A DNA stretch of 64,000 nt from Frigoribacterium sp. Leaf415 (GTDB lineage: Bacteria > Actinomycetota > Actinomycetes > Actinomycetales > Microbacteriaceae). Every line of letters starts with the position of its first letter. Positions within the stretch are counted from its first letter, which is position 1. The notes beneath the pieces were generated by a model that did not search any database, was not told the DNA's origin, and was given only the letters and a program-made list of their open reading frames with translations. The position numbers were made by a program, and so were the translations under genes. Below are positions 134 through 61,356 of the stretch, one piece after another. The stretch lies in assembly GCF_001424645.1 (NCBI RefSeq), contig NZ_LMQR01000001.1, positions 861,301 to 925,300 on the forward strand. Reading direction: 5' to 3'.

Positions 134-1033
134 GTGAACAGCGGCCTCCTCCTCGTCGACAAGCCGCAGGGCATCACCAGCCACGACGTCGTCTCGCGCG
201 TGCGCAAGGCCGCGGGCACGCGGAAGGTCGGCCACGCCGGCACGCTCGACCCGCTGGCCACGGGACTGCTGGTGCTCGGCCTGAACTCGTCGACGCGCCT
301 CCTGACCTTCCTGGTCGGCCTCGACAAGGGCTATGACGCGACCATCCGTCTCGGCGTGTCCACGACGAGCGACGACAGCGACGGCGAGGTCGTCTCGACG
401 ACCTCGGCGGTCGACGTCACCGACGACGCGATCGACGCCGGCATCGCCCGGCTGACCGGTCCGATCAGCCAGGTGCCCACCACGGTGAGCGCGATCAAGG
501 TCGACGGCCGTCGCGCCTACGATCTCGCCCGCGCCGGGGTCGAGGTCGAGCTGAAGGCCCGCGACGTGACGATCGCCGAGTTCACGGTGCTCGACCGACG
601 CGACGCGCTCGTCGACGGGGTGCCCGTGCGTGACCTCGACGTGCGGGTCTCGTGCTCCTCCGGCACCTACGTCCGGGCTCTCGCCCGCGACCTCGGGGCC
701 GACCTCGGCGTCGGGGGACACCTGACCGCGCTGCGTCGGACGCGGGTCGGGCCGTTCGACGTGAGCCGCGCCTCCGTCCTCGAGGGCATCGACGTCGCCC
801 CGGCGCTGCTGCCTCCCGTCGACGTCGCCCGGACGCTCTTCCCGGAGTGGTCCATGACCGCGGCCGAGGCCGTCGACCTCGGGCACGGCAAGCGCGTGGC
901 CGTCGAACTCGACGACACCCTCGGGCCGGTCGCCGCCGTCACGCCCACGGGCAGGCTCGCGGGCCTGGTCTCGGTGCGGGCCGGCGCCGCGAAGCCCATC
1001 GTGAACTTCCCGACCGACGAGGTGCAGGAATGA
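134..1033 (+). CDS. truB: tRNA pseudouridine(55) synthase TruB
   Basis: Isomerises U55 to pseudouridine in the T-loop of elongator tRNAs. The protein is 299 aa, the usual TruB length. The N-terminus has the family motif KPQGITSH (residues 10-17), and GTLDPLATG carries the catalytic Asp39; a C-terminal PUA-like part follows from about residue 240. The start is a GTG. A TAACGT box at 122-127 lies 6 nt before it, so the transcript may be leaderless. The stop overlaps the next gene by ATGA. The truB-ribF neighbourhood is standard for actinobacteria. Identification is firm. Confidence 0.97.
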   Translation: MNSGLLLVDKPQGITSHDVVSRVRKAAGTRKVGHAGTLDPLATGLLVLGLNSSTRLLTFLVGLDKGYDATIRLGVSTTSDDSDGEVVSTTSAVDVTDDAIDAGIARLTGPISQVPTTVSAIKVDGRRAYDLARAGVEVELKARDVTIAEFTVLDRRDALVDGVPVRDLDVRVSCSSGTYVRALARDLGADLGVGGHLTALRRTRVGPFDVSRASVLEGIDVAPALLPPVDVARTLFPEWSMTAAEAVDLGHGKRVAVELDDTLGPVAAVTPTGRLAGLVSVRAGAAKPIVNFPTDEVQE

Positions 1034-1398
1034 TCGAATGGTTCACCTGGGTCCAGGTCGTGGTGGCGGTGGTGGCGGGCATCGTCTGCGTGGTCGCCTG
1101 TTTCGCGAAGCGTCAGCCCGACGACATCACCGTCGGCACGGGGGCCGTCGTGTTGCTGCTCTTGCTCGTGCAGCTCGTCGTCGCGATCGTGGCCCCGTTC
1201 GTCGGCAACGCGCCGACGGGCAACCTCGTCGAGTTCTACATCTACCTCGTCTCGGCCATCCTGCTGCCGCCGCTCGCGACCGTCTGGGCGCTCGTCGACC
1301 GGACCCGGTGGAGCAACCTCGTGCTGGCCACCTCGTCGTTCGCGATCGCCGTGATGGTCTATCGCATGTTCCAGATCTGGACCGTCCAGGGCCTCTGA
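1030..1398 (+). CDS. small four-helix membrane protein, unknown function
   Basis: A 122-aa hydrophobic protein whose ATG overlaps the truB stop (ATGA), indicating translational coupling. Four membrane segments can be seen, roughly residues 5-25, 36-58, 66-89 and 95-113, separated by short polar loops (KRQPDD, RTRW). No catalytic motif is recognised. Its place between truB and ribF is positional only and does not establish a function. I do not recognise the family with confidence. Confidence 0.8.
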   Translation: MIEWFTWVQVVVAVVAGIVCVVACFAKRQPDDITVGTGAVVLLLLLVQLVVAIVAPFVGNAPTGNLVEFYIYLVSAILLPPLATVWALVDRTRWSNLVLATSSFAIAVMVYRMFQIWTVQGL

Positions 1399-1431
1399 CA
1401 CACCCGGTCGGCGGCGGGCCCGTCGGAGTCC

Positions 1432-1437
1432 TATCCT
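1432..1437 (+). promoter_or_regulatory. -10-like box, leaderless arrangement
   Basis: TATCCT, a good -10 match, lies 7 nt before the ATG at 1445, so the downstream membrane-protein gene probably has its own leaderless promoter rather than depending only on truB readthrough. Confidence 0.45.
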
Positions 1438-1444
1438 TGACGGG

Positions 1445-1921
1445 ATGGTCACTCAGAAGTCAACGCGCGCGGTCGGCCTCGGCCGGGTCCTCATCGCCGT
1501 GTACGCCCTCCTCGCCCTCGCCGCCACCGGTCGGTCGGTCTTCCAGATCACGACCCAGTTCTCCGAGGCGCCGCTGGCCTACACCCTGAGCGCGTTGTCG
1601 GCCGTCGTCTACATCGTCGCCACCGTGGCCCTCGTCGCGCCGGGCCAGGGCTGGTACGCCGTGGCCTGGGCGACCATCAGCTTCGAGCTCGTCGGCGTCC
1701 TGATCATCGGTCTCGTGACCGTGCTCGACCCCGAACTCTTCCCGCACGACACCGTGTGGTCGTTCTTCGGGCGCGGGTACGGCTTCGTGCCGCTCGTCCT
1801 GCCCGTGCTCGGCATCCTGTGGCTTCGGCGGCAGGGGCGCGCGACCCGGGCCGCGGGTGGCACCGGTGCCGAGGGTGCGGGGGCCGGCGGGTCTCCTCGC
1901 GACCCGGGCACGACGAGGTAG
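1445..1921 (+). CDS. membrane protein of unknown function
   Basis: A 158-aa protein with four likely transmembrane segments (about residues 11-30, 43-65, 70-93 and 112-128) and a charged, glycine/alanine-rich cytoplasmic tail ending in RDPGTTR. It lies directly upstream of ribF, whose GTG is only 5 nt after this stop, so the two are probably co-transcribed. No enzymatic or transport signature is visible and no function is assigned. The ATG start is supported by the -10-like box 7 nt upstream. Confidence 0.75.
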   Translation: MVTQKSTRAVGLGRVLIAVYALLALAATGRSVFQITTQFSEAPLAYTLSALSAVVYIVATVALVAPGQGWYAVAWATISFELVGVLIIGLVTVLDPELFPHDTVWSFFGRGYGFVPLVLPVLGILWLRRQGRATRAAGGTGAEGAGAGGSPRDPGTTR

Positions 1922-2899: not shown

Positions 2900-2944
2900 C
2901 GAGGAGGCGCGGGTCACGTCGTCGACGTCACCCGCGCCTCCTCG
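2900..2944. terminator. bidirectional hairpin between ribF and deoC, made of two inverted copies of the dispersed motif
   Basis: Perfect 15-bp arms (CGAGGAGGCGCGGGT at 2900-2914 and its complement at 2930-2944) flank a 15-nt loop that can pair further (ACGTCGTCGACGT). It lies between convergent genes, where a two-way terminator is expected. No U-tract follows. The arms are the short word repeated throughout this window. Confidence 0.7.
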
Positions 2945-5324: not shown

Positions 5325-5527
5325 CCGACCCGCGCCTCCTCGTCCTGATGTCGTCGACGACGCCGTTGTACCCGTCGGGTGACGACGCGATGTCGCCGGT
5401 GCCCCTGTGGCTGGGGGTGCTGTTCGGGGTGCTCGTCGTCGTGTCGTCGTTCGTCGTGCTGCTGCCGCGCGTCCGCCACGCGCTCGACCGCGTGTGGTCG
5501 AAGAGGCCGCGGCGCTTCCGTCAGTGA
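5321..5527 (+). CDS. single-pass membrane mini-protein, unknown function
   Basis: A short frame overlapping the SDR stop by GTGA. Possible starts are GTG 5321 (68 aa), ATG 5348 and ATG 5390 (45 aa). The last gives a compact protein that begins MSPVPLWLG, has one hydrophobic helix (LFGVLVVVSSFVVLL) and a basic tail (KRPRRFRQ). The upstream part includes one copy of the dispersed motif (5327-5341), so the region before ATG 5390 may be intergenic. No function can be proposed. Expression is unproven. Confidence 0.5.
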   Translation: MTDPRLLVLMSSTTPLYPSGDDAMSPVPLWLGVLFGVLVVVSSFVVLLPRVRHALDRVWSKRPRRFRQ

Positions 5528-8932: not shown

Positions 8933-9766
8933 ATGCGACTGCCCTGGACCCTTCACGGCTCGGACGTGCGGCGCATCTCCGACATGGCGGGGGAGTCGGT
9001 GCTGTTGGCCGGTGGTGGCAGGGCGATCCTGCTGCAACTGGCGAACCCCGGGGTGGGGCACGGCGTCGCGGAGCACAGCGACTTCGTCGAGCGTCCGTTG
9101 TCGCGGCTGCACGGCACGATGACGTACCTCTACTCCATCGTCTTCGGCACCCCGTCCGAGGTGGCCCACGTCCGCCGGGTCGTCGGTCGGGCGCACCGTC
9201 CGGTGCACGACGGCGAGTCCTCGTCGGTGCGGTACGACGCGTTCGACCCCGGGATGCAGCTCTGGGTCGCGGCGACCCTCTACGACTCGGCCCTGCAGTT
9301 GTTCGAGCGGGTGCACGGGCCGATCGACCCGGCCCACGCCGAGACCGTCTACCAGGACTACGCCCTCGTGGGCACGTCGCTGCAGATGCCGCGAGAGCTG
9401 TGGCCGGCCGACGTGGCATCGTTCCGGCGGTACTGGGACGACGCCGTCGAACATCTCATGGTGGACGACGTCACCCGTCGGGTCGCGCACGAGCTGTTGC
9501 ACCCGACGACGGGGCCGTGGTGGCTGAGAGCGGTGATGCCGCTCGCGCGGCTCGTCACCGCGGGGTCCCTGCCGCGCAGCGTCCGAGACGACTTCGGGCT
9601 CCCGTGGTCGACCGGCGCCCAGCGTCGCTACGACCGGGTGATGCTCGTCACGGCCGTCGTGGTGCCGCATCTGCCCCCGCGCCTCCGTCATGTGCTCCGT
9701 GACGGGTACCTTCGGCGGCTGCGTTCGGCGATGGCGGCCGAGGCGCGCACGCCCTCCCGCGGCTGA
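8933..9766 (+). CDS. oxygenase MpaB family protein (DUF2236)
   Basis: A 277-aa, mostly helical protein of the DUF2236/MpaB family, whose members include the rubber oxygenase Lcp and fungal MpaB; many actinobacterial copies are uncharacterised. Visible family features are the N-terminal LLAGGGRAILLQLANPGVGHGV with H and the HSDF segment, RPLSRLHGTMTYLYSIVFGT, the RVVGRAHRPVHD histidine motif near residue 90, and LWVAATLYDSALQLFE. These histidines are candidate haem or metal ligands by family comparison. The physiological substrate is unknown. The ATG is supported by a -10-like box 6 nt upstream. The gene is followed by a block of inverted repeats. Confidence 0.86.
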   Translation: MRLPWTLHGSDVRRISDMAGESVLLAGGGRAILLQLANPGVGHGVAEHSDFVERPLSRLHGTMTYLYSIVFGTPSEVAHVRRVVGRAHRPVHDGESSSVRYDAFDPGMQLWVAATLYDSALQLFERVHGPIDPAHAETVYQDYALVGTSLQMPRELWPADVASFRRYWDDAVEHLMVDDVTRRVAHELLHPTTGPWWLRAVMPLARLVTAGSLPRSVRDDFGLPWSTGAQRRYDRVMLVTAVVVPHLPPRLRHVLRDGYLRRLRSAMAAEARTPSRG

Positions 9767-13598: not shown

Positions 13599-14240
13599 AT
13601 GTCACGACCGATCAAACTTCGCCGCCCGCCGCAGTTCACGGCCGAGATCGTCGATGACGCCCGCGAACGCCTGCTCGACCTGCTCGACGACCTGAAGACG
13701 CTCACCACCGACCACGCCGACGACATCGAGGTCTGGGGCTCGGCCGTGACGGCGGCCGGCTGGGAGATCGCGAGCCTCGGCCAGTGGCTCGGCCTCGAGG
13801 GCGAGGCGGTGCTGCTGCTGGGCGGCGCGTCGTACCCCGAGATCGCCGAGCACCAGGGCACGAGCGCGTCGGCCGTGTACGCCCGGGTCGGCCGGTCGCT
13901 CACGCTCGCTCCGTACGCGCACGCGTCCGGCGCCGACGGGGCGACCACCCGCGTCTCGGCCGAGGGCCTCGACCAGGCCCGGGCCGAGTACGACCAGGAG
14001 GCGCGGGCCGGCGACCCGACGGACGTCGCCCCGGCGGCCACGCCCGTCGGCGACTCGCTGGCCGACCGCGTGCCCGAGGTGCTGCGGGCCGGCGCCCGCC
14101 GAACGACCGAGATCGTCGCCGCCCTGCCGGACTACCGGCGCAGCAGCGTGCTGTCGACGCTGAGCGTCCTCGCCCGCCAGGGCGTGGTCGAACGGGTGGG
14201 GCACGGCGTCTACGCCCTGCCCCACCCGCCGACCGACTGA
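13599..14240 (+). CDS. hypothetical protein with possible HTH and winged-helix regions
   Basis: A 213-aa protein, divergent from rplU. The middle ([25 protein letters not shown]) looks like a helix-turn-helix, and the C-terminus ([41 protein letters not shown]) reads like a winged helix with the beta-wing [12 protein letters not shown]-binding role is inferred from these patterns only. A linker of about 50 residues (residues 115-165) is Ala/Asp-rich. A TTG at 13581 is in frame, but ATG 13599 fits the nearby -10-like box. I do not recognise the family. Confidence 0.7.
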
Positions 14241-14262: not shown

Positions 14263-14768
14263 TCAGTCCGGGGCGACGGCCACCGCCTCGTGGAGTCCGA
14301 ACGCCCGCAGCTCGTCGTCTGTGAGCATGCGCGACCGGATCAGGAAGCGCTTCCCTTCAGGACTCTCGACCGAGAACCCGGCCCCGCGGCCGGGGACGAC
14401 GTCGATGGTGAGGTGGGTGTACTTCCAGTACTCGAACTGGCTGCGCGACATGTAGACCTCGACGGGGTCGATCCCGTCGACGTGCAGGTCGCCGAGGTGG
14501 ACGTCGACGGCCCCCACCCGGAAGAACCCCACGGGGTAGCACATCGGCGACGAGCCGTCGCAGCAGCCTCCCGACTGGTGGAACATCAGCGGGCCGTGCT
14601 GGGCCGTCAGGGCGACGAGGAAGGTCGCTGCCTCCGGTGAGACGTCGACCCGGGAGGGGGTGGAGGCGACCGCCCCGGAGGCGGGGGCCGGCGTGACCTC
14701 GCCGACCCGCGCCTCCTCGCCTGACGCTGCTGATGCCGGCGGCGCAGCGGCCGTCTGCTCGGGCGTCA

Positions 14769-16310: not shown

Positions 16311-16511
16311 GACGGTCCCTTTCGACGACGGTGTCGGGTCGGCGGCGGGGGTCGCCCGCCGGTGGCGGCAGGCTACGTCGGGGGAGGTTGCATCGGGTTG
16401 CGCGTCACGGCCCGCGGGCGGGCGCGGCCGCCGGGTTCCGGGGCCTAGGTGAACCGGAGGTGCGGGGTTCCAGGGCTGTGGGGTTCCGGAGGCGCGGGGC
16501 GCGAGGGCGCG

Positions 16512-19817: not shown

Positions 19818-19851
19818 CGGCAGGAAAGGCGTCGACGGCAGGAGGCGCGGG

Positions 19852-27873: not shown

Positions 27874-29661
<1,788 letters not shown>

Positions 29662-33845: not shown

Positions 33846-34574
33846 TCAGTCGACGGGAGCGAGCAGACCGGGGTGGTCGACCGACGACGAGCCGACCTCG
33901 GGGCCGACCTCGTGGTGCAGCAGGCGCTCGGCGATCTCGTCGCTGAGGCCCGCGATGCCCTGCACCAGGTCGTCGTCGCCCTCGGTCTCGGGGTCGAGCC
34001 AGTCGTCCATGACGTCGGTGCCGACGAGCACCGGCATGCGGTCGTGCACGTCGGACACCGGACCCGAGGAGGCGCGGGTCAACACGGTCGTCGACAGCAG
34101 CCACCGAGACGGGGCGCCGACCTCGGCCGACGGGTCGCGCCACCACTCGTAGAGCGCACCGAACAGGACCACCTCGTCGTCGGGCAGCCGCACGAGGACG
34201 GGGCGCTTCGAGCCGTCGGGCAGGGTCTGCCACTCGTACCAGCCCGTCGCCGGGACCAGGCCACGGCGCGAGATCACGGCGTCGCGGAACGAGGGTTTCT
34301 CGGCGGCCGACTCGGATCGTGCGTTGAACAGCGGGGGACCGGAGTCGGGACCCGCCGAGCCGCCGGGCACGAGACCCCAGCGGGCCGACGCGAGGCGTCG
34401 GACCGGCGGGCCACCCGCGTCGGCGCCCCGAGGTGCCGCGTCGACCAGGAGACTCACCGGCCGAGTCGGAGCGATATTCCAGGAAGGCTCTGGGAGAGTG
34501 TCTCCTGATACATCGACGTCGAACAGGGCCACCAGGTCGCTCGAGGCGCGTGCCATCACGAATCGTCCGCACAT
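33846..34574 (-). CDS. SOS response-associated peptidase, HMCES/YedK family
   Basis: A 242-aa SRAP protein. The start gives MCGRF, where Cys2 becomes the N-terminal nucleophile that crosslinks to abasic sites in single-stranded DNA. Also visible are WNIAPTRPV, RWGLVP, the NARSES motif (Asn and Glu of the active site), RGLVPATGWYEW, and VHDRMPVLV with the catalytic His. It shields abasic sites at forks. ATG 34574 is required, since Met removal must expose Cys2. No LexA box was seen immediately upstream, though family members are often SOS-linked. Confidence 0.95.
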   Translation of the reverse strand: MCGRFVMARASSDLVALFDVDVSGDTLPEPSWNIAPTRPVSLLVDAAPRGADAGGPPVRRLASARWGLVPGGSAGPDSGPPLFNARSESAAEKPSFRDAVISRRGLVPATGWYEWQTLPDGSKRPVLVRLPDDEVVLFGALYEWWRDPSAEVGAPSRWLLSTTVLTRASSGPVSDVHDRMPVLVGTDVMDDWLDPETEGDDDLVQGIAGLSDEIAERLLHHEVGPEVGSSSVDHPGLLAPVD

Positions 34575-38701: not shown

Positions 38702-38747
38702 CGTCGTCCGGGGCCACGCCCCGAGGGCGAAGGCGAGGAGGCGCGGG

Positions 38748-43689: not shown

Positions 43690-45437
43690 CCCGCTCGTTG
43701 CTCCGCACCGCCCAGCCCGGTGCGCGCCGGGCCGCCCCCGGCATCGTCTTCGGATCGCTCAGCGCCCTGTCGGCGGTGGCGTTGCTCGCGGCGTCGGCGT
43801 ACCTCATCACGCGGGCCGCCGAGCAGCCGCCGATCCTCTACCTCTCGCTCGCCGTCGTCGGCGTCCGCGCCTTCGCCCTGACCCGGGCGGTCTTCCGCTA
43901 CCTCGAACGGTTGTCGAGCCACGACGCGGCCTTCCGCCAGCTGGCGGTGGTCCGCACCGAGCTCTACCGGCGCCTGATCCGCGTCGCGCCGGCGGGCCTC
44001 GGCCGCACGGATCGCGGCGACCTGCTGGCGCGCGTCGTCGGCGACGTCGACGCCCTGCAGGACCTTCCCCTGCGGGTCGTGCAGCCGCTCGTGGTGTCGG
44101 GACTCACCTCGGTCGTCGCGGTCGTCGGCGTCGCCCTCGTGTCCCCGGCGGCGGCGGTCGTCCTGGCGGGCGCACTCGTCGTCGCGTTCGTCGTCGGCTG
44201 CGTCGCCGCCGACCGGCTCGCCCGCCGCAGTGAGCGCACCCTCGCCGACCGGCGCGGGGCGCTCTCGGCCGCCGTGGTCGACCTCGTGCAGAACCTCGAC
44301 GTGCTCGTCGCGTTCGAGGCGGTGGACCGCCAGCTCGGCCGGGTCGCGGGACTCGACGACGACCTGCGCCGCGCCTCCTCGCGTCGGGCCCTGACCGGGG
44401 GCGTCGTCGCCGCCGTGCTCTCGGCGCTGTCGGGTGCCGCCGTGCTCGCGACGATCCCCGTCGTCGCGCCCGACGTCGCCTCGGGCGGGCTGACCGGCCC
44501 GGCCTTCGCCTTGGTCGCCCTCGTGCCCCTCGCCGTCTTCGAGGTCGTCGGAGCCGTCCCGACGGCCGTGCTGGCCTGGCGTCGCGTCCGGGCGAGCGGT
44601 GACCGCGTCGAGTCGGCGGTGCCGGTCGAGGTGCCGGCCGGCGTCATCGACGACGAGGCCGCCGGAGGGTCGGACGCCGGCCCCGTCGAGCTCGTCCGAT
44701 CGGTCGGATCCGCCGTGTCGGCACCCGCGCCCGCCCTGCGTCTGCGCGGCGTCTCGGCGACGTGGCCGGGGGCGGCCGGCCCCGCGCTCCGCGGCGTCGA
44801 CCTCGATGTGGCCGTGGGCGACCGGCTCGTGGTCGAGGGGCCGAGCGGCGCGGGCAAGACCACGCTGGCCTCGGTGCTGGCCCGGTTCGTCGAGCACACG
44901 GGTCGCTACGAGGTCGGGGGAGTCGACACCGCGACCCTCGCCCCGGCCGCCGTCCGGGCCACGGTCGGCCTGATCGAACAGACGCCCTACCTCTTCGACG
45001 AGTCCCTGCGGCAGAACCTGCTCTTCGCCCGCGACACGGCCACCGACGACGACCTGCTCGCGGTGCTGGAGCGCGTCGGACTGGGCCGCTGGGCCACCGA
45101 GCGCGGCGGGCTCGACGCACCGGTGGGCGAGCGGGGCGTCCTCGTCTCGGGCGGCCAGGCCCAGCGCATCTCACTGGCCCGTGCCCTCCTGCGGGGGTTC
45201 CCGGTGCTCGTGCTCGACGAGCCCACCGCCGGACTCGATCCCGAGACCGCTCGTCGGCTCGTGCGCGACGTCCTCACGACGGCCCGCGACGACGGTTCGA
45301 CGGTCGTCGTGATCTCGCACGTCGAGGTGCCGGCCGAGCTGGTGACGCGTCGCGTGCGCATCGAGGCGGGCCGCCTGAGCGAGGTCGAGGTCGAGGGCGA
45401 CCTCGAACCCGACGCCGCCCTCGACGACGACGCCTGA
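43686..45437 (+). CDS. cydC: thiol reductant ABC exporter subunit CydC
   Basis: A 583-aa half-transporter, the partner of CydD. The membrane domain starts PGIVFGSLSALSAVALLAASAYLITRAAEQPP, the CydC-typical opening. The ATPase has GPSGAGKTTLASVL, LVSGGQAQRISLARALLRG and VLVLDEPTAGLDPET. GTG 43686 overlaps the cydD stop. Gene order cydA-B-D-C is the usual one in actinobacteria, so the four are very likely one operon. An acidic tail (EVEVEGDLEPDAALDDDA) ends the protein. Confidence 0.94.
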   Translation: MTRSLLRTAQPGARRAAPGIVFGSLSALSAVALLAASAYLITRAAEQPPILYLSLAVVGVRAFALTRAVFRYLERLSSHDAAFRQLAVVRTELYRRLIRVAPAGLGRTDRGDLLARVVGDVDALQDLPLRVVQPLVVSGLTSVVAVVGVALVSPAAAVVLAGALVVAFVVGCVAADRLARRSERTLADRRGALSAAVVDLVQNLDVLVAFEAVDRQLGRVAGLDDDLRRASSRRALTGGVVAAVLSALSGAAVLATIPVVAPDVASGGLTGPAFALVALVPLAVFEVVGAVPTAVLAWRRVRASGDRVESAVPVEVPAGVIDDEAAGGSDAGPVELVRSVGSAVSAPAPALRLRGVSATWPGAAGPALRGVDLDVAVGDRLVVEGPSGAGKTTLASVLARFVEHTGRYEVGGVDTATLAPAAVRATVGLIEQTPYLFDESLRQNLLFARDTATDDDLLAVLERVGLGRWATERGGLDAPVGERGVLVSGGQAQRISLARALLRGFPVLVLDEPTAGLDPETARRLVRDVLTTARDDGSTVVVISHVEVPAELVTRRVRIEAGRLSEVEVEGDLEPDAALDDDA

Positions 45438-45498: not shown

Positions 45499-46326
45499 TC
45501 AGACGCCGATCGGTCGTCGCAGGCGGTCGAGTCGGCCGCGCCAGAGCGCGAGGCGCCCGGGGTCCTCGGCCGGGGCCGGGCCGTCGACCCAGCCGGTGAC
45601 GATGCGGATGCCGTGCAGTGCGCTGAGGCTCCACACCTCGAACCCGTCGAGCTCGTCCGGCCGGGTGCGGTCGTGCAGCACGTCGACTCCGAGGACGGCG
45701 GCCAGCGTCGTCAGGCTGCGGACCGTCACGCCCGGGAGGCGGGGCAGGTCGTCCGCCGGCAGGCACAGGGCGTCGCCGCGCCACCAGACGATCGAGCTCC
45801 AGGCGCCCTCGACGACGTGCCCTTCGGGCGAGAGCAGCACCGCCTCGTCGGCCCCTCGGGACCGGGCGTCGGCCACGAGCGACCCGAGGGCCGCGAGGTC
45901 GGGGCCCTTGACCGTGGGCTGCGTGCGGGGGTCACGGTCGGCCGTCGCGAGGACGACCGATCGGCGGCGCGGGGGAGCGGGCCGGAGGCGCAGCCGCAGC
46001 CGTGCGCGACCGTCGTCGTCGGTTCCGTCGCCGGCGACGAGCTCGGCCCGCGGGAACCAGGCGCCCGTCCGGAGCAGGACCCCCACGGCCGCCGTCCAGA
46101 ACGCCGAGACCTCGTCCGCGTCGGGCCCCCCGGCCACCTCGGCGACCGAGCCGGCGAACCGGTCGCGGTGCACGTCGAGCGCGAGCGTCGAGCCGTCGTC
46201 GACCAGCCACGAGTCGGCCACCAGGAGGCGCGGGTCGGCCTCGCCCGTCGCTCCGTCCCCGCGCGTCGTCAGCTCGTCGCCCTGCCAGACGTGCAGCACG
46301 TCGCCTGCCGGCCGCTCGGCACTCAT
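45499..46326 (-). CDS. pabC: aminodeoxychorismate lyase (class IV aminotransferase)
   Basis: A 275-aa PLP enzyme of the class IV aminotransferase fold, which splits 4-amino-4-deoxychorismate into p-aminobenzoate and pyruvate for folate synthesis. The PLP lysine is in TVKGPDLAAL, and DEAVLLSPEGHVVEGAWSSIVWW is the family's cofactor-binding segment. It is divergent from pabB, 32 bp apart, supporting the assignment. A class IV branched-chain or D-amino acid aminotransferase role is less likely in this context. Confidence 0.87.
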   Translation of the reverse strand: MSAERPAGDVLHVWQGDELTTRGDGATGEADPRLLVADSWLVDDGSTLALDVHRDRFAGSVAEVAGGPDADEVSAFWTAAVGVLLRTGAWFPRAELVAGDGTDDDGRARLRLRLRPAPPRRRSVVLATADRDPRTQPTVKGPDLAALGSLVADARSRGADEAVLLSPEGHVVEGAWSSIVWWRGDALCLPADDLPRLPGVTVRSLTTLAAVLGVDVLHDRTRPDELDGFEVWSLSALHGIRIVTGWVDGPAPAEDPGRLALWRGRLDRLRRPIGV

Positions 46327-46358: not shown

Positions 46359-47783
46359 ATGCGCCCCGCGGTCGTCCGATCCTCCCTGCCGTGGCGCGAC
46401 CCCGAGGCCGTCGTCCGGCACCTGGCCGCGACCGGCGACGTCGTCTGGCGCGACGCCGGGGTGGGCGCCACCCGGGGCCGGTCCGTCGTCGGGTGGGGCC
46501 CGGCCCGGACGGGCGACGTCCGCGACGGTGGCGCCGACCGGCTCTGGCACGAGGTGCGCGACGACCTGGCCGACGTCGAGCCCGACAGCCACCCGCTCGG
46601 CTGGGCGGGCTGGCTCGGCTACGGCTTCGGCTGCCGACTGCTGGACCGTGACGCCACCGAGGGGCACCGCCCGGCGGCCACCGCCTCGACCGTCGCCGCC
46701 GACGGAGACCCCGCCGACCTCGCCCTGCTCGACGTCGACCGTGCCCTGGTCTTCGACCACGCCGCACGCTCGGTCGAGGCCGTCGCGCGGGCCGGCGACC
46801 CGTGGCGCCGCTCGGTGGCCGAGACGTGGGCCGACGTGCCGTCCGAGCCCCCGGTGCCCGGGCCGACCCGCGCCTCCTCGGTGGGCTCCGCCTCGCCCGC
46901 GGTCCGCTGGCGGCACCGCCCCGACGAGTACCTCGACCTGATCGAGGGGTGTCGGCGGGCCATCGCGGACGGTGAGGCGTACCAGCTCTGCCTGACGACG
47001 GCGGTCGACGTCGACGGGCCGGTGGACGCGCTCGAGGCCTTCGCGCGCCTCCGTCGGTCCTCGCCGGCTCCGCACGCGTCGTTCGTGCGCATCGGCGACG
47101 TGGCCGTCGTCGGGGCCTCGCCCGAGTCGTTCGTCGAGGTGACGACCGACGGCCGGGTGTCGTCGTCGCCGATCAAGGGCACGCGACGCCGCGGGTCGGG
47201 CGCCGACGACACGGTGCTCGCGCGCGAACTCGTCGAGAGCGACAAGGAGCGCGCCGAGAACGTCATGATCGTCGACCTGGTCCGCAACGACCTCGCCCGG
47301 GTGGCCCGTCTCGGCACGGTCGAGGTGTCCGAACTGCTCGCCGTGCACTCGTACGAGCACGTCCACCAGCTCGTCAGCACGGTGCGGGCCCGTCTCGGGG
47401 CGGGGTGCACCGCGGCCGACGTCGTCGAGGCGGCCTTCCCGGCCGGGTCGATGACCGGCGCGCCGAAACGTCGGGCCGTCGAACTGCTCGCCGACCTCGA
47501 GGGGGCGCCCCGGGGGGTCTACTCGGGCGCGACGGGCTGGCTCGGACGGGACGGCTCGGCGAGCCTCGCGATGACCATCCGCTCGATCGTGGTGCACGGT
47601 GCCCGGGCGGCGGGTGCGGGACGGCCCGCGCGACCGGCGGGTGCGCGCGTCGGCGTCGGCGGCGGCATCACCATCTCGTCGGTGCCGGTCGACGAACGCG
47701 ACGAGGTCGAGCTCAAGGCGTCGGCCCTGCTCGCCGTGCTCGGCGTCCGTGCCGCCGACGGGGCCCCGGTGCGCATGTCGTGA
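46359..47783 (+). CDS. pabB: aminodeoxychorismate synthase component I
   Basis: A 474-aa chorismate-utilising enzyme that aminates chorismate in p-aminobenzoate synthesis. The C-terminal catalytic domain has AYQLCLTTAV, SPESFVEV, SSSPIKGTRRRG with Lys273, ELVESDKERAENVMIVDLVRND, LAVHSYEHVHQLVSTV, FPAGSMTGAPKRRAVELL and GVYSGATGWLG, in the usual order. The N-terminal part (residues 1-180) is divergent. The amidotransferase PabA is not adjacent. ATG 46359 gives a leaderless arrangement. Confidence 0.92.
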   Translation: MRPAVVRSSLPWRDPEAVVRHLAATGDVVWRDAGVGATRGRSVVGWGPARTGDVRDGGADRLWHEVRDDLADVEPDSHPLGWAGWLGYGFGCRLLDRDATEGHRPAATASTVAADGDPADLALLDVDRALVFDHAARSVEAVARAGDPWRRSVAETWADVPSEPPVPGPTRASSVGSASPAVRWRHRPDEYLDLIEGCRRAIADGEAYQLCLTTAVDVDGPVDALEAFARLRRSSPAPHASFVRIGDVAVVGASPESFVEVTTDGRVSSSPIKGTRRRGSGADDTVLARELVESDKERAENVMIVDLVRNDLARVARLGTVEVSELLAVHSYEHVHQLVSTVRARLGAGCTAADVVEAAFPAGSMTGAPKRRAVELLADLEGAPRGVYSGATGWLGRDGSASLAMTIRSIVVHGARAAGAGRPARPAGARVGVGGGITISSVPVDERDEVELKASALLAVLGVRAADGAPVRMS

Positions 47784-50615: not shown

Positions 50616-51320
50616 ATGACCGTCAGCTTCCGCACCGCCGCCGATCCGTCCGAGCCGGGTGGTCCGCGGTGGCGCGTGGGGCTCGGTGCGGTCGTCGTCC
50701 TGCTCTTCGTCGTGCTGGCGGTGAGCGTCGCCGTGTCGGCGTTCGCCACCCGAGGAGGCGCGGCGGACGAGCTCGTGACCGTCGAGTCGAGCACCGGGGC
50801 CGAGGCCGGCGCAGGGTCCGGCACCGCGCCTCCCGGGGGTGCCTCGGTCGTCTTCGTGCACGTGCACGGCCGGGTGGCGGCGCCCGGCCTGTACGAGCTG
50901 CCGCACGGCGCCCGCGTGGTCGACGTGGTCGCCGCGGCCGGCGGGTTCACTGCCGAGGCCGACCAGGCGGCCGTCAACCTCGCGCGGGTGCTCGTCGACG
51001 GCGAGCAGCTCCGGGTGCCGGCCGTGGGTGAGACCGCGGACGACGGGGTGGCGGGCGGTGGTGACGCGGCGGCGGGTGGACCGGCGGCGGGCGGTCCGGT
51101 GACCGGGGGAGGTGCGGCGGCCGGTGGCGGAGCGGTCGACCTCAACCTCGCGGACGACGCGGCGTTGCAGACGCTGCCCGGTGTGGGCCCGGCGACCGCG
51201 GCCGCGATCCTGTCCTGGCGCGACGAGAACGGGCGCTTCCGCAGCGTCGACGACCTGCTCGGCGTGCCGGGCATCGGTCCGAAGACGCTCGAGTCGCTGC
51301 GAGACCGGGTGCGGGTGTGA
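50616..51320 (+). CDS. comEA: ComEA family DNA-binding protein
   Basis: A 234-aa membrane-anchored DNA receptor. One transmembrane helix near residues 23-43 is followed by an SLBB domain (VVFVHVHGRVAAPGLYELPHGARVVDVVAAAGG, about 77-110), a flexible Gly/Ala linker (VAGGGDAAAGGPAAGG) and two helix-hairpin-helix motifs (LPGVGPATAAAILSWR, VPGIGPKTLESLR) at about residues 185-232. It should bind incoming duplex DNA and pass it to ComEC. Its stop overlaps the comEC ATG. A TACCGT box ends 8 nt before the start. Confidence 0.93.
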   Translation: MTVSFRTAADPSEPGGPRWRVGLGAVVVLLFVVLAVSVAVSAFATRGGAADELVTVESSTGAEAGAGSGTAPPGGASVVFVHVHGRVAAPGLYELPHGARVVDVVAAAGGFTAEADQAAVNLARVLVDGEQLRVPAVGETADDGVAGGGDAAAGGPAAGGPVTGGGAAAGGGAVDLNLADDAALQTLPGVGPATAAAILSWRDENGRFRSVDDLLGVPGIGPKTLESLRDRVRV

Positions 51321-54300
51321 TGCCCGGTCGCGTGCTCGACCTGCGGCTGGGGGTGCCCGTGGCCGTGGCGTGGGTGGGGCTCGCGGTCGGCTCGACCCGG
51401 CCCGGGCTGCTGCCCGTCGTGACGGCGGTCGCCCTCGTCGTCTGCGTCGTCGCGATAGGACTCGTGGTCGTGGCGCGGGTGGGCGTCCTGGCCGCCGGGC
51501 AGGTCCTGCTGGTGGTCGCCTTGAGTGCCGGGGCGTGCGCCGGACTCACCGGCCAGGCGGCGGTGCGAGACGACCGCCGACACCCGTCGGGGCTCACGAC
51601 GTCGGTCGGGCACGCGGTCACCGTCGAGGGGCGACTGCTCGACCGGGTCGAGGGGCGGGCCGACGTCCTGACCATGTCGGTCGACCGCCTCGACGTCGGC
51701 GCGGGGACCGTGGGGCTCGGCGACCGAGTGCCGGTGCGGGTGTTCGGCGCTCGAGTCGACGGTGGCGGCTCGGTCGAGATCGGCGCGCGGGTCTCCGCCC
51801 GGCTCGTCCTGGCCCCGGTGCGGTACGGCGAGTCGGTCGCCTTCGAGGGGCGTGCGGTCGAGCCGCTCGGCGTCCGCGCCGAGCCCGGACGGGCGTCGGC
51901 CTGGTCGAACGGGCTCCGGTCGGCCTTCCGCGCCGTGGCCGCCGGCCTGCCGGGCGACGGCGGGGCGCTGCTGCCCGGGCTCGCCATCGGCGACACGTCG
52001 GGTGTGCCCGACGATCTCGACGACGACATGAGGCAGGCGTCGCTCAGCCACCTGACGGCCGTGTCGGGCTCGAACTGCGCGGTGCTCGTCGCCCTCGTGA
52101 TGCTCGTCGGGTCGCTGCTGAAGGTGCCGCGGTTGCTGCGGCTCGCGGTGGCAGTCGTCGTGCTCGTCGCGTTCGTCGTGCTCGTCACGCCCGAGCCGAG
52201 CATCGTCCGGGCCACCGTCATGGCGGTGCTCGTCCTCGTGCACCTCGCCGTCGCCCGACCGATCGCCGGCGTGCCCGTCGTCGCGCTGGCGGTCGCCGGG
52301 CTGCTGTTCACCGACCCGTGGTTGGCCCGCGACCTCGCCTTCGTCCTGTCGGTCCTCGCGACGTCGGGGCTGGTCGTGCTCGGCGGACCGCTGACCGCCC
52401 TGCTGGCGCGCCTCGTGCCCGAGCCGGTGGCGGCCGCCCTCGCCGTGCCCGCGGCCGCGCAGCTCGCCTGCCAGCCCGTGCTGCTCGCCCTCGAACCGAG
52501 CATCGCCCTGCACGGCGTCGTCGCGAACGTGCTCGCCGGCCCGGCGGCTCCGGTGGCGACCGTGGGCGGACTCGTCGTCTGCGTGCTCGCGCCCTGGGTG
52601 CCCGGGGCGGCCACGGCCGTCGCCTGGGCCTCGTGGCTGCCGTCGTCCTGGGTCGCGGCCGTCGCCCGGTCGGCGGCGAGCTGGCCGGGCACGCGACTCG
52701 GGTGGGACGCCTCGGCGCTCGGCGTCGCCTCCCTGGTCGGCGTCACGGCACTCGTCGTCGTGGCCGTGGTGGCCCGGGCCCGGGGGCGCACGCGAGCCGT
52801 GGCGGCGACGCTGCTGGTGAGCGTGCTCGTGGCGGCCGTCGGCGTGGTGGGCGGGCACACCGTGGTGACCCGCGCCTCCGTACCCGACGACTGGGTCGTC
52901 GCCCAGTGCGACGTGGGACAGGGCGATGCCGTGCTCGTGCGCAGCGGCCCCGTCGTCGCCTTGATCGACGTGGGCGACGACGGGGCCGCCCTCGACCGAT
53001 GCCTCTCGACGTTCGGCGTCCGGCACGTCGACCTGCTCGTGCTCACCCATTTCGACCGTGATCACGTCGGGGCGATCGACTCCGTGGTCGGTCGGGTCGG
53101 CACAACTCTCGTCGGGCCCGTGGGGCGCTCCGACGACGCCGAGGTCGTGGCGGCGCTGCGCGACGGTGGTGCCGAGGTCCAGGAGGCGCGGGTCGGCACC
53201 CGGGGACGCCTCGGCGACATCACGTGGCGGCTGCTCTGGCCGCCTGCCGACATCGCCGCGGGCAACGACGCCAGCCTCGTGCTGCGCGTCGACCCCGGCG
53301 CGGCCTGCCGGATCGGATGCCTCTCGCTGCTGGCCCTGGGCGATCTCGGCGAGACGGCGCAACGCCGCCTGGCCTCGTCGCCCGACGGTGAGGAGGGGCT
53401 CGGGCGCGTCGACGTGGTGAAGGTCTCGCACCACGGGTCGGCGGACCAGCACGCCGAGCTGTACGAGCGGGTGGCGGCCCGTGTCGGGCTGATCGGCGTC
53501 GGGGCCGACAACTCGTACGGGCACCCGACCGACGTCGCGCTCGACCTGGTCCGGCGCGGCGGGGGAGTCGTGGTCCGCAGCGACGAGGCCGGACAGGCCG
53601 CGGTGACGCCCGTCGACCGTGGGGACGGCGACGTCGGCCTGCGGATCTGGCGGGAGCACGCGGGGCCCCGGGACCGTGACGACACGTCGGGCACGTCGGT
53701 GGCGTCCTCTAGCATCGGAGGTGGCGCGGCGGGCCCCGCGTCCGTGGGACGACGTCCGAGAGGCAGCATGGCAGCGCGAGCGAGTGGCAAGACGGCGAAG
53801 AAGGCCTCGGTCGCGATCGACCAGGTGGGGTGGGACAGAATCCGGCCCGCGGCCGTCGTGCTGGTGAGCGGGCCCGAGCAGTTCCTCGCCGATCGGGCCT
53901 CACGCCAGCTGCGCGACCAGCTCGCCTTCGAAGACCCCAGCCTCGAGGTGCACGACCTCGAGGCCGACCACTACCAGCCCGGCGAACTCGTGACCCTGGC
54001 GAGCCCGTCGCTCTTCGCCGAGCCGCGTCTCATCCGCGTCTCGAACGTCGAGAAGTGCACCGACGCGTTCCTCACCGAGACGCTGCGCTACCTCGAGACG
54101 CCCGCCGACGACACGACCCTGGTGCTGCGCCACGGGGGCGGGGTCCGCGGCAAGAAGCTGCTCGACGCCGTCCGGGGCGGCACCGGCGGCGGCCTCGAGG
54201 TCGTCTGCGCCGAGCTCAAGAAAGACACCGAGAAGCTCGCGTTCGCGGCCGCCGAGTTCGCGGCCGAGCGACGACGCATCTCGCAAGGGGCCCTGCGGGC

Positions 54301-54802
54301 GCTCGTCACGGCCTTCAACGACGACCTGGCCGAGCTCGCCAGCGCCTGCCAGCAGTTGATCAGCGACGCCGCGGCCGAGATCACCGAGGCCACCGTCGAG
54401 AAGTACTACTCGGGCCGGGTCGAGACGAACGCCTTCAAGGTGGCCGACGCGGCCATCGCCGGCCACCAGGGCGAGGCCCTCGTGCTGCTGCGCCACGCGT
54501 TGTCGACCGGGGCCGACCCCGTGCCCGTGGTGGCGGCGTTCGCGATGAAGATCCGCACGATGGCCAAGCTGCAAGGTTCGTACGGTGGCTCGGGGCAACT
54601 CGCCTCACGCTTCGGGCTCGCCCCGTGGCAGGTCGAGCGGGCGCAACGCGACCTCCGTGGCTGGTCCGAGGACGGGCTGGGCCGATGCATCGAACTGCTC
54701 GCCGAGACCGACGCGGCCGTCAAGGGCGCCGAACGCGATCCCGTGTACGCACTCGAGCGGATGGTGACCATGATCTCGACGCGCGGTGCGCTGCTGTCGT
54801 GA
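51320..54802 (+). CDS. comEC: ComEC/Rec2 DNA uptake channel, reading on into holA in the same frame
   Basis: The ComEC part covers roughly the first 785 residues: an N-terminal OB-like region, the competence domain with SLSHLTAVSGSNCAVLVAL and many membrane helices (about 235-500), and a C-terminal metallo-beta-lactamase-like domain with LTHFDRDHVGAID (metal ligands) and VKVSHHGSADQ, ending near DEAGQAAVTPV. It forms the inner-membrane channel for single-stranded DNA. No stop codon occurs before the HolA sequence, so the frame is 1160 codons long. The ATG overlaps comEA (TGATG). See the finding on the fusion; the ComEC part may normally end near 53680. Confidence 0.85.
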   Translation: MPGRVLDLRLGVPVAVAWVGLAVGSTRPGLLPVVTAVALVVCVVAIGLVVVARVGVLAAGQVLLVVALSAGACAGLTGQAAVRDDRRHPSGLTTSVGHAVTVEGRLLDRVEGRADVLTMSVDRLDVGAGTVGLGDRVPVRVFGARVDGGGSVEIGARVSARLVLAPVRYGESVAFEGRAVEPLGVRAEPGRASAWSNGLRSAFRAVAAGLPGDGGALLPGLAIGDTSGVPDDLDDDMRQASLSHLTAVSGSNCAVLVALVMLVGSLLKVPRLLRLAVAVVVLVAFVVLVTPEPSIVRATVMAVLVLVHLAVARPIAGVPVVALAVAGLLFTDPWLARDLAFVLSVLATSGLVVLGGPLTALLARLVPEPVAAALAVPAAAQLACQPVLLALEPSIALHGVVANVLAGPAAPVATVGGLVVCVLAPWVPGAATAVAWASWLPSSWVAAVARSAASWPGTRLGWDASALGVASLVGVTALVVVAVVARARGRTRAVAATLLVSVLVAAVGVVGGHTVVTRASVPDDWVVAQCDVGQGDAVLVRSGPVVALIDVGDDGAALDRCLSTFGVRHVDLLVLTHFDRDHVGAIDSVVGRVGTTLVGPVGRSDDAEVVAALRDGGAEVQEARVGTRGRLGDITWRLLWPPADIAAGNDASLVLRVDPGAACRIGCLSLLALGDLGETAQRRLASSPDGEEGLGRVDVVKVSHHGSADQHAELYERVAARVGLIGVGADNSYGHPTDVALDLVRRGGGVVVRSDEAGQAAVTPVDRGDGDVGLRIWREHAGPRDRDDTSGTSVASSSIGGGAAGPASVGRRPRGSMAARASGKTAKKASVAIDQVGWDRIRPAAVVLVSGPEQFLADRASRQLRDQLAFEDPSLEVHDLEADHYQPGELVTLASPSLFAEPRLIRVSNVEKCTDAFLTETLRYLETPADDTTLVLRHGGGVRGKKLLDAVRGGTGGGLEVVCAELKKDTEKLAFAAAEFAAERRRISQGALRALVTAFNDDLAELASACQQLISDAAAEITEATVEKYYSGRVETNAFKVADAAIAGHQGEALVLLRHALSTGADPVPVVAAFAMKIRTMAKLQGSYGGSGQLASRFGLAPWQVERAQRDLRGWSEDGLGRCIELLAETDAAVKGAERDPVYALERMVTMISTRGALLS
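53768..54802 (+). CDS. holA: DNA polymerase III delta subunit (sliding-clamp loader)
   Basis: A 344-aa protein from the internal ATG 53768, which has GAGAGG 4 nt upstream. It begins ARASGKTAKKASVAIDQVGW, then RIRPAAVVLVSGPEQFLADRASRQLRDQL, the clamp-loader delta opening, and continues with VSNVEKCTDAFLTETLRYLE and the C-terminal domain (TNAFKVADAAIAGHQGEALVLLRHAL). It opens the beta clamp. A TAGCAT -10-like box at 53710-53715 could drive it separately. It is in frame with comEC, and a fusion product is possible. The TGA stop is followed immediately by the dispersed motif. Confidence 0.92.
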   Translation: MAARASGKTAKKASVAIDQVGWDRIRPAAVVLVSGPEQFLADRASRQLRDQLAFEDPSLEVHDLEADHYQPGELVTLASPSLFAEPRLIRVSNVEKCTDAFLTETLRYLETPADDTTLVLRHGGGVRGKKLLDAVRGGTGGGLEVVCAELKKDTEKLAFAAAEFAAERRRISQGALRALVTAFNDDLAELASACQQLISDAAAEITEATVEKYYSGRVETNAFKVADAAIAGHQGEALVLLRHALSTGADPVPVVAAFAMKIRTMAKLQGSYGGSGQLASRFGLAPWQVERAQRDLRGWSEDGLGRCIELLAETDAAVKGAERDPVYALERMVTMISTRGALLS

Positions 54803-54850
54803 ACCGCGCCTCCTGACCGTCAGGGCGGCCGGCCGCGCCGGCGTCCGGGT

Positions 54851-57197: not shown

Positions 57198-57283
57198 GTC
57201 GGCAACTCCTGCCTGCTGTCGCGGCACGAGCGGCGGACCGGGGAGGCGCGGTGCCGTCCGCGGCACCGGGCAGCAGTTGCCGA
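57198..57283. repeat. 86-bp imperfect palindromic element, copy upstream of lepA (b)
   Basis: Begins GTCGGCAACTCCTGCC and ends GGGCAGCAGTTGCCGAC. Its centre includes one copy of the dispersed GGAGGCGCGG motif (57242-57251). It ends 92 bp before lepA. Confidence 0.78.
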
Positions 57284-57374: not shown

Positions 57375-59225
<1,851 letters not shown>

Positions 59226-60004: not shown

Positions 60005-60006
60005 CG

Positions 60007-61233
60007 GTGCCCGGAGCCCTTCCCCTCGGCGATCCCGCCCCCGTCGACGGACACCTGCCCGAGACCGTCGCGGTCGGCGCGGACGACCGCAACTTCGGGG
60101 TCTACCTGCACGTCCCGTTCTGCCGTGTGCGCTGCGGGTACTGCGACTTCAACACGTACACGGGCGACGAACTGCGGGGCGCACGCCGGGACGACTACGC
60201 CGGGCAGGCCGTCGCCGAGATCGAGCTCGGGGGCCGGGTGCTGCGCGAGGCGGGTCTGCCGCCGCGCCGCGCCTCCTCGGTGTTCTTCGGCGGGGGCACC
60301 CCGACGATGCTGCCCTCGGGCGACCTCACGTCGATGCTGCACGCGATGGTCGACACCTGGGGTCTCGAGCCCGGCGCCGAGGTGACGACCGAGGCGAACC
60401 CCGACTCGGTCGACGCCGCGTACCTGCAGCAGCTCGCCGACGCCGGGTTCACGCGCGTCAGCTTCGGCATGCAGTCGGCCGTGCCGAGCGTGCTCGCCAC
60501 CCTCGAGCGCACGCACGATCCCGAGCGCATCCCGTTCGTGGTGCGCTGGGCGCGCGACGCCGGGCTCGACGTCAGCCTCGACCTCATCTACGGCACGCCC
60601 GGCGAGACCCTCGACGACTGGAGGCGTTCGCTCGACGTCGCCCTCGAGCAGCAGCCCGACCACCTCTCGGCCTACTCGCTGATCGTCGAGGACGGCACGA
60701 AGCTCGCCCGTCAGATCAAGCGTGGCGAGGTCCCGATGCCCGACGACGACACCGCGGCCGACATGTACGAGATCGCGGACGACCGGCTCGCCGCGGCGGG
60801 GTACGACTGGTACGAGGTCAGCAACTGGTCCCGTGGCGTCGAGCACCGCTCCCGACACAACCTGGCCTACTGGCAGGGCCACGACTGGTGGGGCGTCGGC
60901 CCGGGCGCGCACAGCCACGTCGGCGGCGTCCGCTGGTGGAACGTCAAACACCCGGCCGCCTACCAGCAGCGCATGGCCGCGGGTGAGTCGCCGGCCGCCG
61001 GACGCGAGACCCTCGACGACGAGACACGACGGGTCGAGCGCGTCCTGCTCGGGGTGCGCATCCGCGAGGGGCTGCCGACCTCCGAGCTCGACGACGACGG
61101 GCGCCAGGCGGTCGCCGGCCTCATCGCCGACGGCTGGGTCGAGGGGCGCCCGGCCCTGCAGGGCCGCGTGGTGCTCACTCGCGAGGGTCGCCTGATGGCC
61201 GACGCCGTCGTGCGGCGCCTGCTGCCCGACTGA
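60007..61233 (+). CDS. hemW: radical SAM haem chaperone HemW
   Basis: A 408-aa radical SAM protein. The [4Fe-4S] cysteines are Cys39, Cys43 and Cys46 in HVPFCRVRCGYCDF, followed by VFFGGGTPTMLP, TEANPDSV, SFGMQSAVPSVLATLERTHD and SLDLIYGTPGET. HemW was once called an oxygen-independent coproporphyrinogen oxidase but delivers haem to target proteins; the single third Cys (lacking CxxxCxxC-x-C) fits HemW. GTG 60007 is used. Confidence 0.94.
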   Translation: MPGALPLGDPAPVDGHLPETVAVGADDRNFGVYLHVPFCRVRCGYCDFNTYTGDELRGARRDDYAGQAVAEIELGGRVLREAGLPPRRASSVFFGGGTPTMLPSGDLTSMLHAMVDTWGLEPGAEVTTEANPDSVDAAYLQQLADAGFTRVSFGMQSAVPSVLATLERTHDPERIPFVVRWARDAGLDVSLDLIYGTPGETLDDWRRSLDVALEQQPDHLSAYSLIVEDGTKLARQIKRGEVPMPDDDTAADMYEIADDRLAAAGYDWYEVSNWSRGVEHRSRHNLAYWQGHDWWGVGPGAHSHVGGVRWWNVKHPAAYQQRMAAGESPAAGRETLDDETRRVERVLLGVRIREGLPTSELDDDGRQAVAGLIADGWVEGRPALQGRVVLTREGRLMADAVVRRLLPD

Positions 61234-61236
61234 CCG

Positions 61237-61282
61237 CGCGCCCTCCTCCTGCGCTTCGCGCACGGCGGACCGAGGAGGCGCG
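61237..61282 (+). terminator. imperfect hairpin after hemW formed by an inverted pair of the dispersed motif
   Basis: CGCGCCCTCCTC (61237-61248, one extra C against the motif) directly after the TGA can pair with GAGGAGGCGCG (61272-61282). A further direct copy lies at 61295-61305. Confidence 0.5.
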
Positions 61283-61356
61283 GGCCGGGAACGCAGGAGG
61301 CGCGGCTCCCGGGGGAGTCGCGCCTCGCGTCGTGCCCGTGCGGGCCGGTCGACCGT

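Follow-up and report, generated by a model that had tools for sequence, protein, structure and literature searches.

The 64-kb stretch of the Frigoribacterium sp. Leaf415 genome analyzed here (the window, by which we mean the whole of that stretch) contains comEA, followed by comEC fused in frame to holA, and is interspersed with a short word, GGAGGCGCGG, which is the subject of this report. The word occurs 32 times in the window, 16 times on each strand, as compared with 1.68 copies on average, and never more than 6, in dinucleotide shuffles. An earlier interpretation of the letters, made without database searches (the sequence-only reading), had listed 29 sites, had put the chance expectation at about two copies and had described the word as DNA-uptake-sequence-like. 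All 29 sites are present within 3 bp of the places given for them, and three others (9677, 17673 and 50824) had been missed; the shuffle mean shows that the estimate of about two copies was correct.

The sites below derive from a word scan combined with our own gene calls, and the remarks on orthologues from alignment against comEC-region loci. Genes were called with a purpose-written caller in two versions, the first of which provided the open reading frames (ORFs) of the window and the genes for the synonymous-codon shuffles, and the second the analysis of 92 intergenic sites. Of the gene names proposed in the sequence-only reading, Pfam was used to check those of comEA and comEC (with holA) only, and it matched both; truB and lepA in the list are names taken over from that reading.

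766..775, - strand: word inside ORF 134-1033 (truB)
2903..2912, + strand: word, intergenic; left half of an inverted pair with 2932
2932..2941, - strand: word, intergenic; right half of the inverted pair with 2903
5330..5339, - strand: word just past the end of ORF 3729-5324, within a short called ORF that has no Pfam match
9677..9686, - strand: word inside ORF 8966-9766; missed earlier
13997..14006, + strand: word inside ORF 13599-14240
14707..14716, - strand: word inside ORF 14263-14769
16488..16497, + strand: word, intergenic
17412..17421, - strand: word inside ORF 16512-17753
17673..17682, + strand: word inside ORF 16512-17753; missed earlier
18216..18225, - strand: word inside ORF 17985-18908
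19841..19850, + strand: word, intergenic
21342..21351, + strand: word inside ORF 21315-24794 (- strand), near the 3' end of the ORF
25045..25054, - strand: word, intergenic
28306..28315, + strand: word inside ORF 27874-29661
33361..33370, - strand: word inside ORF 32767-33807
34068..34077, + strand: word inside ORF 33846-34370
38737..38746, + strand: word, intergenic, with convergent genes on both sides
42043..42052, - strand: word inside ORF 42028-43689; intact in all 6 aligned orthologues (the other 4 of the 10 loci do not align)
43102..43111, + strand: word inside ORF 42028-43689
44369..44378, - strand: word inside ORF 43686-45437; gapless non-word in 2 of 2 aligned distant loci
46224..46233, + strand: word inside ORF 45499-46326
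46868..46877, - strand: word inside ORF 46359-47783; kept in 5 of 5 close relatives, with a varying 5' flank
50616..51320, + strand: comEA (SLBB and helix-hairpin-helix, by Pfam), candidate uptake machinery
50754..50763, + strand: word inside comEA
50824..50833, - strand: word inside comEA, inverted relative to 50754; missed earlier
51320..54802, + strand: comEC fused in frame to holA (by Pfam, gene calls and genome matches), candidate uptake channel
52870..52879, - strand: word in the comEC part of comEC-holA
53182..53191, + strand: word in the comEC part of comEC-holA
54804..54813, - strand: word, intergenic, directly 3' of comEC-holA
57242..57251, + strand: word, intergenic, before ORF 57375-59225 (lepA)
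60267..60276, - strand: word inside ORF 60007-61233; gapless non-word in 5 of 5 distant loci
61274..61283, + strand: word, intergenic, just past ORF 60007-61233
61296..61305, + strand: word, intergenic, in tandem with 61274

Ten of the 32 sites fall outside called genes and, as the sequence-only reading had maintained, none falls by our gene calls within the ORFs that it had assigned to leuS, lepA, zwf, cydA, cydB, rplU, rpmA, rpsT and hrcA. A 14-base word, GTCGGCAATTCCTG, was noted in the window, each of its three 12-mers occurring six times when both strands are counted. The comEA and comEC genes of the window constitute weak evidence for an uptake word, because both are widespread.

Abundance, layout and form of the word

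The complete Leaf415 genome (3.4 Mb) holds 1,725 copies of GGAGGCGCGG (867 forward and 858 reverse), or approximately one per 2 kb, as opposed to 67 copies (37 forward and 30 reverse) of the same word read backward, which served as a control. In a 444-kb sample consisting of the window and 19 chromosome stretches of 20 kb, a third-order Markov model predicts 4.6 copies and 211 are seen, an approximately 45-fold excess, and the 10- to 12-mers that rank top under this model are mostly parts or extensions of GGAGGCGCGG. A second over-represented word in the same sample is GGGGGAGTC (30 copies versus 1.6 under the Markov model), and CAGGGCGA occurs 195 times versus 61.

The sample is 86% coding, and 120 of its 211 copies (57%) are genic, falling in all six frames with strong preferences (36 in sense frame 2, 43 in antisense frame 2 and a single one in sense frame 1), while the remaining 91 are intergenic where 30 would be expected by length, a threefold enrichment. 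The second version of the gene call counts 92 intergenic sites; 52 of these are found no more than 60 nt from the 3' end of a gene, and 17 are within the same distance of a 5' end. AGGAGG is a frequent part of the word, yet only one of the 92 ends within 15 nt upstream of a same-strand start, and Shine-Dalgarno sites are accordingly rejected. Neighboring copies no more than 120 bp apart are inverted in 23 of 27 cases, often at a distance of 20-29 bp, although only 36 of 210 copies belong to an inverted pair of 60 bp or less and 174 do not. After merging of close sites, the spacing is more even than chance would have it (coefficient of variation of the gaps 0.75 versus 0.93, standard deviation 0.07).

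Could high G+C content and codon usage, or a recurrent protein motif, give rise to such a word as a mere by-product? The preference for some reading frames within genes is what might be adduced for such an origin. However, 50 synonymous-codon shuffles, in which proteins and codon usage are held fixed, yield 13.5 in-gene copies on average and 23 at most against the 120 seen, the word is enriched between genes as well, and no such excess exists in most other genera of the family that were sampled. Codon usage and composition are rejected as the cause on the strength of the shuffles, and we assign this explanation a negligible probability. Whether assessed within genes with codon usage modelled or by the Markov expectation, the count is far from expectation, and the first of the refuting outcomes named in the sequence-only reading did not occur.

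The balance of orientations that had been described for the window holds across the entire genome. Over the 19 stretches, 105 copies lie on one strand and 99 on the other (heterogeneity p 0.91), and the best of the replichore splits tried places 53.4% of copies on one side, which is below the null mean of 57.5% and denotes no strong replichore bias, so that the second refuting outcome did not occur either. These figures bear on a possible recombination hotspot of the Chi type, recognized by RecBCD or AddAB. Chi sequences are 5-8 bases long and skewed to the leading strand, and neither a leading-strand skew nor a strong replichore skew could be found over the 19 stretches, so that Chi itself and the FtsK-orienting polar sequences (KOPS) are rejected. 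A Chi-like element would be dispersed and over-represented on the chromosome and scarce around prophage genes, as the word is, and related genera do possess short words in approximately 5- to 12-fold excess within genes; nevertheless, the 45-fold excess and the conservation over some 12 bp described below exceed what a Chi of 5-8 bases displays, and the intergenic enrichment and the inverted pairs also argue against a hotspot of this kind, which we regard as improbable.

The consensus of the word is about 5'-AGGAGGCGCGG(G/T)(T/G)C(G)G-3'. Around 209 Leaf415 sites, an A stands directly before GGAGGCGCGG in 74% and a C at +12 in 76%, with weaker preferences for G/T at +10, T/G at +11, bases other than T at +13, G/C at +15 and T/A at +16. 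Single mismatches in the last two bases are 6- to 11-fold enriched in five of six variants, and since mismatches elsewhere are at most 3.2-fold enriched, GGAGGCGC represents the strict core. Genic (114), single intergenic (60) and paired (36) copies have a largely similar consensus, and GGAGGCGCGG is not its own complement, i.e. it is non-palindromic.

Evolution, foreign DNA and distribution among genomes

When the window region is compared with five other Frigoribacterium loci (six comEC regions, mean identity 0.908), an intact word is retained in 261 of the 332 ordered site pairs, which are non-independent in that they are drawn from six related sequences, versus 0.38 expected. Column identity amounts to 0.93-0.99 from -2 to +9 and mostly to 0.75-0.95 beyond, delimiting some 12 bp as the conserved footprint. 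Five loci of a more distant clade, 78-80% identical where aligned, provide 70 comparisons over 14 sites, of which 14 are unaligned, 31 contain an insertion or deletion (indel), 6 retain the word, 2 show one mismatch and 17 are gapless with at least two mismatches. At the ten coding sites among them, the 41 aligned comparisons comprise 18 indels, 6 retained words and 17 gapless non-words (e.g., at 44369 and 60267), and by virtue of the latter substitution suffices at a good part of the coding sites. Block insertion may have operated at other sites, and we think that many of the distant-clade indels reflect poorly aligned stretches.

The same comparisons help to assess the idea that the word constitutes an arm of short hairpins between genes, which spread as repetitive extragenic palindromic (REP)-like elements or were selected as transcription terminators. 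Such an origin would accommodate the inverted pairs that are often 20-29 bp apart, the intergenic copies near gene 3' ends and the indels present in 31 of the 56 aligned distant-clade comparisons; furthermore, the word begins GGAG, as some REP elements do, and a related word of genus g53, TGGAGGCGCG, is mostly intergenic (22 of 25 sampled copies), with six inverted pairs in a wider sample of 31 sites, four of these pairs at a spacing of 24 bp. Conversely, the genic copies make up a majority spread over six frames, few copies are closely paired, and the 17 gapless non-words imply that at least these copies arose or vanished by substitution. The genic majority and the scarcity of close pairs lead us to reject REP units as the main cause, and a hairpin origin in general appears very unlikely. 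As to g53 itself, its intergenic hairpins have arms like GGCCTGGAGGCGCG, several of them 24 bp apart, and are REP-like or terminators.

A phage portal gene was found in 3 of 16 Frigoribacterium genomes, with four matches in total, and the DNA within 10 kb on either side of these matches (83.7 kb) contains 2 words, as opposed to the 34.6 that would correspond to the genome mean density (P 6e-13). The density around portal genes is thus close to the shuffle rate found for the window; these regions are mostly of lower G+C.

All 16 Frigoribacterium genomes examined carry GGAGGCGCGG, with 842-1,725 copies each. In a survey of 299 genomes of the family (7 Frigoribacterium and 292 of other genera; excess judged by eye), only genus g53 (216-688 copies, in all six genomes) and, in genus g76, a single genome out of five (399 copies versus 142 of the control) reach at least 200 copies and twice the control among the other genera, and none of the 23 genomes from other families in a set of 60 relatives does so, likewise by eye. 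The closest named matches to the ComEC of the window come from five Frigoribacterium strains (84-95%), and among 71 comEC-region loci the ten from Frigoribacterium carry 4-19 copies of the word each whereas the remaining 61 (Cryobacterium, Leifsonia, Agromyces, Clavibacter, Plantibacter and others) carry 0-2. The sequence-only reading had considered that absence of the word from relatives with an intact com system would count against it, and on this point the outcome is mixed: the word is present throughout the genus, always together with a ComEC match, but most other genera lack it, several of them having different words.

These different words stand out under the synonymous shuffle, from which the Glaciibacter row was left out because the first gene caller found no genes there. 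In-gene counts are 25 versus 2.0 for CAGGATCCG in genus g5, 22 versus 4.5 for CGGATGCGC in genus g50, 38 versus 5.4 for CGGATGCCG in Leifsonia, 50 versus 6.2 for GGATGCCGC in Agromyces and 42 versus 5.2 for GCGGATCC in Clavibacter; two Plantibacter loci give little signal, with no GGAGGCGCGG and 3 versus 1.2 for CGGATGCCG. At the level of whole genomes (199 genomes), CAGGATCCG has 816, 677 and 313 copies in three g5 genomes and at most 352 (in G084) elsewhere, an excess judged by eye; the backward control is poor for this word, as many genera exceed it about tenfold. The 3.4-Mb Leaf415 genome has no copy of CAGGATCCG, though most other genera have some, a lack that suggests avoidance of the site or exclusion of a foreign dialect. 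In 17 genomes of genera g99, g100 and g106, CGGATGCCG has 175 to 3,084 copies, exceeding the control more than sevenfold in 13 of them (by eye) and only 2.7- to 4.3-fold in G200, G229, G501 and G533; outside the family (230 genomes from 19 families) it mostly stays at 1-3 times the control and attains up to approximately 4.5 times (G424, G372). Rich in this word are G178, G292, G143, G512 and others of g100 and g106, and in G178 it is denser than the Frigoribacterium word (3,084 copies, 1,534 and 1,550 per strand, versus 162 reversed). In yet another genome, G031, repeats of the CACGCCCAC type head the Markov lists of 9- to 12-mers.

Uptake machinery and the case for a DNA-uptake word

If the word serves DNA uptake, candidate machinery is at hand. 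A ComEC match exists in all 16 Frigoribacterium genomes, running over stop codons in G006, G009, G003 and G012. In the window, ComEC and HolA (DNA polymerase III delta) form a single uninterrupted ORF of 1160 amino acids, and one stop-free match spans both parts in 8 of the 16 genomes, the matches in the others being split or running over stops. In Leaf415, C1:2402501-2422500 contains an operon that is consistent, in gene order and in sequence, with a type IVa pilus (pilB, pilT, pilC, pilA, three minor pilins, pilD, pilM, pilN and pilO), where Pfam matched only the two ATPases and the remaining names are our reading of order and sequence. This type IVa-like operon of a monoderm actinobacterium is located before apparent str ribosomal genes. 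PilC is matched in 13 of the 16 genomes; among 24 chosen genomes, 19 have a strong PilB-type ATPase and all have a weaker, Tad-like ATPase hit, whose locus fits Tad in the three genomes in which it was inspected. A small Tad-like locus was likewise identified by reading near topA of Leaf415. Transformation of the actinobacterium Micrococcus luteus is reported to require Flp/Tad pili (PMC4322843), which makes the Tad route the more economical guess, both the type IVa and the Tad pilus being guesses as regards the uptake pilus. Since pilus presence does not track the words, the type IVa pilus is rejected as a simple determinant of word carriage. The block from pilA to the third minor pilin is only 34-70% identical between G014 and Leaf415, and this cassette looks to have been swapped by recombination.

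The word displays the pattern of an uptake word in most of the sequence tests run, and the likeness put forward by the sequence-only reading held for excess, strand balance, the mixture of genic and intergenic copies, inverted pairs, even spacing, word-sized conservation, scarcity around prophages and restriction to a genus. We consider it probable, at roughly 0.6, that the word is a DNA-uptake-type watermark of Frigoribacterium, possibly the first word of this type in Gram-positive bacteria. The competence, preferential uptake, receptor and drive mechanism that we infer would operate as follows: competent cells probably prefer DNA that bears the word; a putative surface DNA receptor would feed this DNA to ComEA and ComEC; and incoming words would recombine into the chromosome and accumulate through biased gene conversion, a form of molecular drive. 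Accumulation would be easiest between genes and in those gene regions that tolerate change, and would not take place in recently arrived phage DNA, while related genera would use other words as dialects.

A number of observations weigh against this interpretation. Besides the non-independence of the orthologue pairs, one of seven control words is conserved equally well (0.78; the other six, 0.00-0.57), and an indel inside the word stretch affects more than half of the aligned distant-clade comparisons. The synonymous shuffle is blind to codon-pair effects and gives an excess of up to 2.5-fold for unrelated words, CGAGCACG among them; in a 100-kb Leaf415 sample the core of the word ranks fourth among 8-mers by this shuffle, its extension GGAGGCGCG being first among 9-mers. 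The word-rich genomes G002, G003 and G005 (1,415-1,562 copies) have neither a PilC match nor a match to an 89-amino-acid piece of PilA. G014 shares with Leaf415 the word and nearly identical PilB (99%) and PilM (98%), but its minor pilins are only 34-43% identical, and because these pilins diverge while the word stays the same, minor pilins do not obviously set specificity; their rejection as the determinant is a weak one. The g53 word is almost wholly intergenic without in-gene excess (3 versus 2.7), GGATGC-type words are enriched in G022 and G026, both of which lack a type IVa pilus, and G213 and G031 possess such a pilus yet have no clear word. Finally, a literature search found no paper naming both Frigoribacterium and natural transformation, and no such word for Microbacteriaceae among the titles and abstract openings listed, preprints and most subscription papers being outside the search.

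The carriage of over-represented words by family genomes that have no type IVa pilus would also suit an abundant intracellular host protein (for nucleoid, repair or segregation functions) that binds the word, or an iterated word akin to HIP1, maintained through selection or through biased mutation or repair instead of through uptake. HIP1 is palindromic and the Frigoribacterium word is not, and the footprint of approximately 12 bp, the inverted pairs near gene ends and the restriction to a genus together form the pattern of an uptake word. The even spacing may be taken in favor of an intracellular role, since for the known uptake words others have interpreted it as pointing to replication, repair or compaction (PMC1939737). 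On balance, we deem an intracellular role unlikely.

Returning to uptake, we infer that the words of other genera are dialects of one system because they share GGA. Extended to the family as a whole, this reasoning would give sequence-specific uptake throughout Microbacteriaceae with GGA-core dialects (AGGAGGCGCGG in Frigoribacterium, CAGGATCCG in g5, CGGATGCGC in g50 and CGGATGCCG in several other genera). Microbacteriaceae would then be the third family to possess self-recognizing DNA uptake and the first such lineage among Gram-positive (monoderm) bacteria, probably through a Tad/Flp-type pilus together with ComEA and ComEC. We offer this extension tentatively and at somewhat less than even odds; it is weakened by the fact that, in four of the 17 family genomes, the CGGATGCCG excess falls in the range reached by some genomes of other families. 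Should uptake be confirmed, a third and independent case, in monoderms, would mean that self-tagging of DNA evolves repeatedly and does not need an outer membrane; adding the word to donor DNA would provide genetic access to a large family of plant and soil bacteria, and the several genera that bear different words would lend themselves naturally to a comparative search for the receptor.

Comparison with known systems

Like Chi, the Frigoribacterium word belongs to the dispersed, over-represented short words that differ between genera, but it has no strand bias and its footprint is longer. It resembles HIP1 of cyanobacteria, a very frequent iterated word of debated function, which is nevertheless a palindromic octamer whereas the Frigoribacterium word is asymmetric and longer. 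A subset of its copies occurs in inverted pairs as in REP elements and intrinsic terminators, from which it departs in the genic location of 57% of the sampled copies and in the 174 of 210 that stand outside close inverted pairs. The uptake signal sequence (USS) of Pasteurellaceae is unrelated in sequence, and its full form has A+T tracts where the Frigoribacterium word is flanked by weak base preferences.

Sequence-specific uptake has been described for two families, Pasteurellaceae and Neisseriaceae, according to a 2016 review that gives the USS as 5'-AAGTGCGGT-3' and the DNA uptake sequence (DUS) of Neisseriaceae as 5'-ATGCCGTCTGAA-3' (PMC5031613). The abstract of a 2025 paper states that the Pasteurellaceae receptor is still unknown, and in its title a minor pilin is given as the predicted one (PMC12616744). 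The likeness to the USS extends to number, at 1,725 copies in the 3.4-Mb Leaf415 genome, to gene content, given that 65% of Haemophilus influenzae words are reported to be genic at approximately 86% coding (PMC2346458) as compared with 57% at 86% here, and to significantly even spacing (PMC1939737). With the DUS, the Frigoribacterium word shares the nature of a short non-palindromic word present in hundreds to thousands of copies across the chromosome and its scarcity in the accessory genome (PMC5031613), here seen around prophage portal genes, as well as inverted pairs able to form hairpins (PMC2346458). The eight DUS dialects described for Neisseriaceae have a common three-base core (PMC3630211), a property that the words of Microbacteriaceae would parallel if they are dialects. 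The Frigoribacterium word differs from the DUS in its unrelated sequence, in its monoderm host, in being known from sequence alone where the DUS has the receptor ComP, and in its larger genic share, 35% of Neisseria gonorrhoeae words being reported to lie in genes (PMC1939737) versus 57% of the sampled Frigoribacterium copies.

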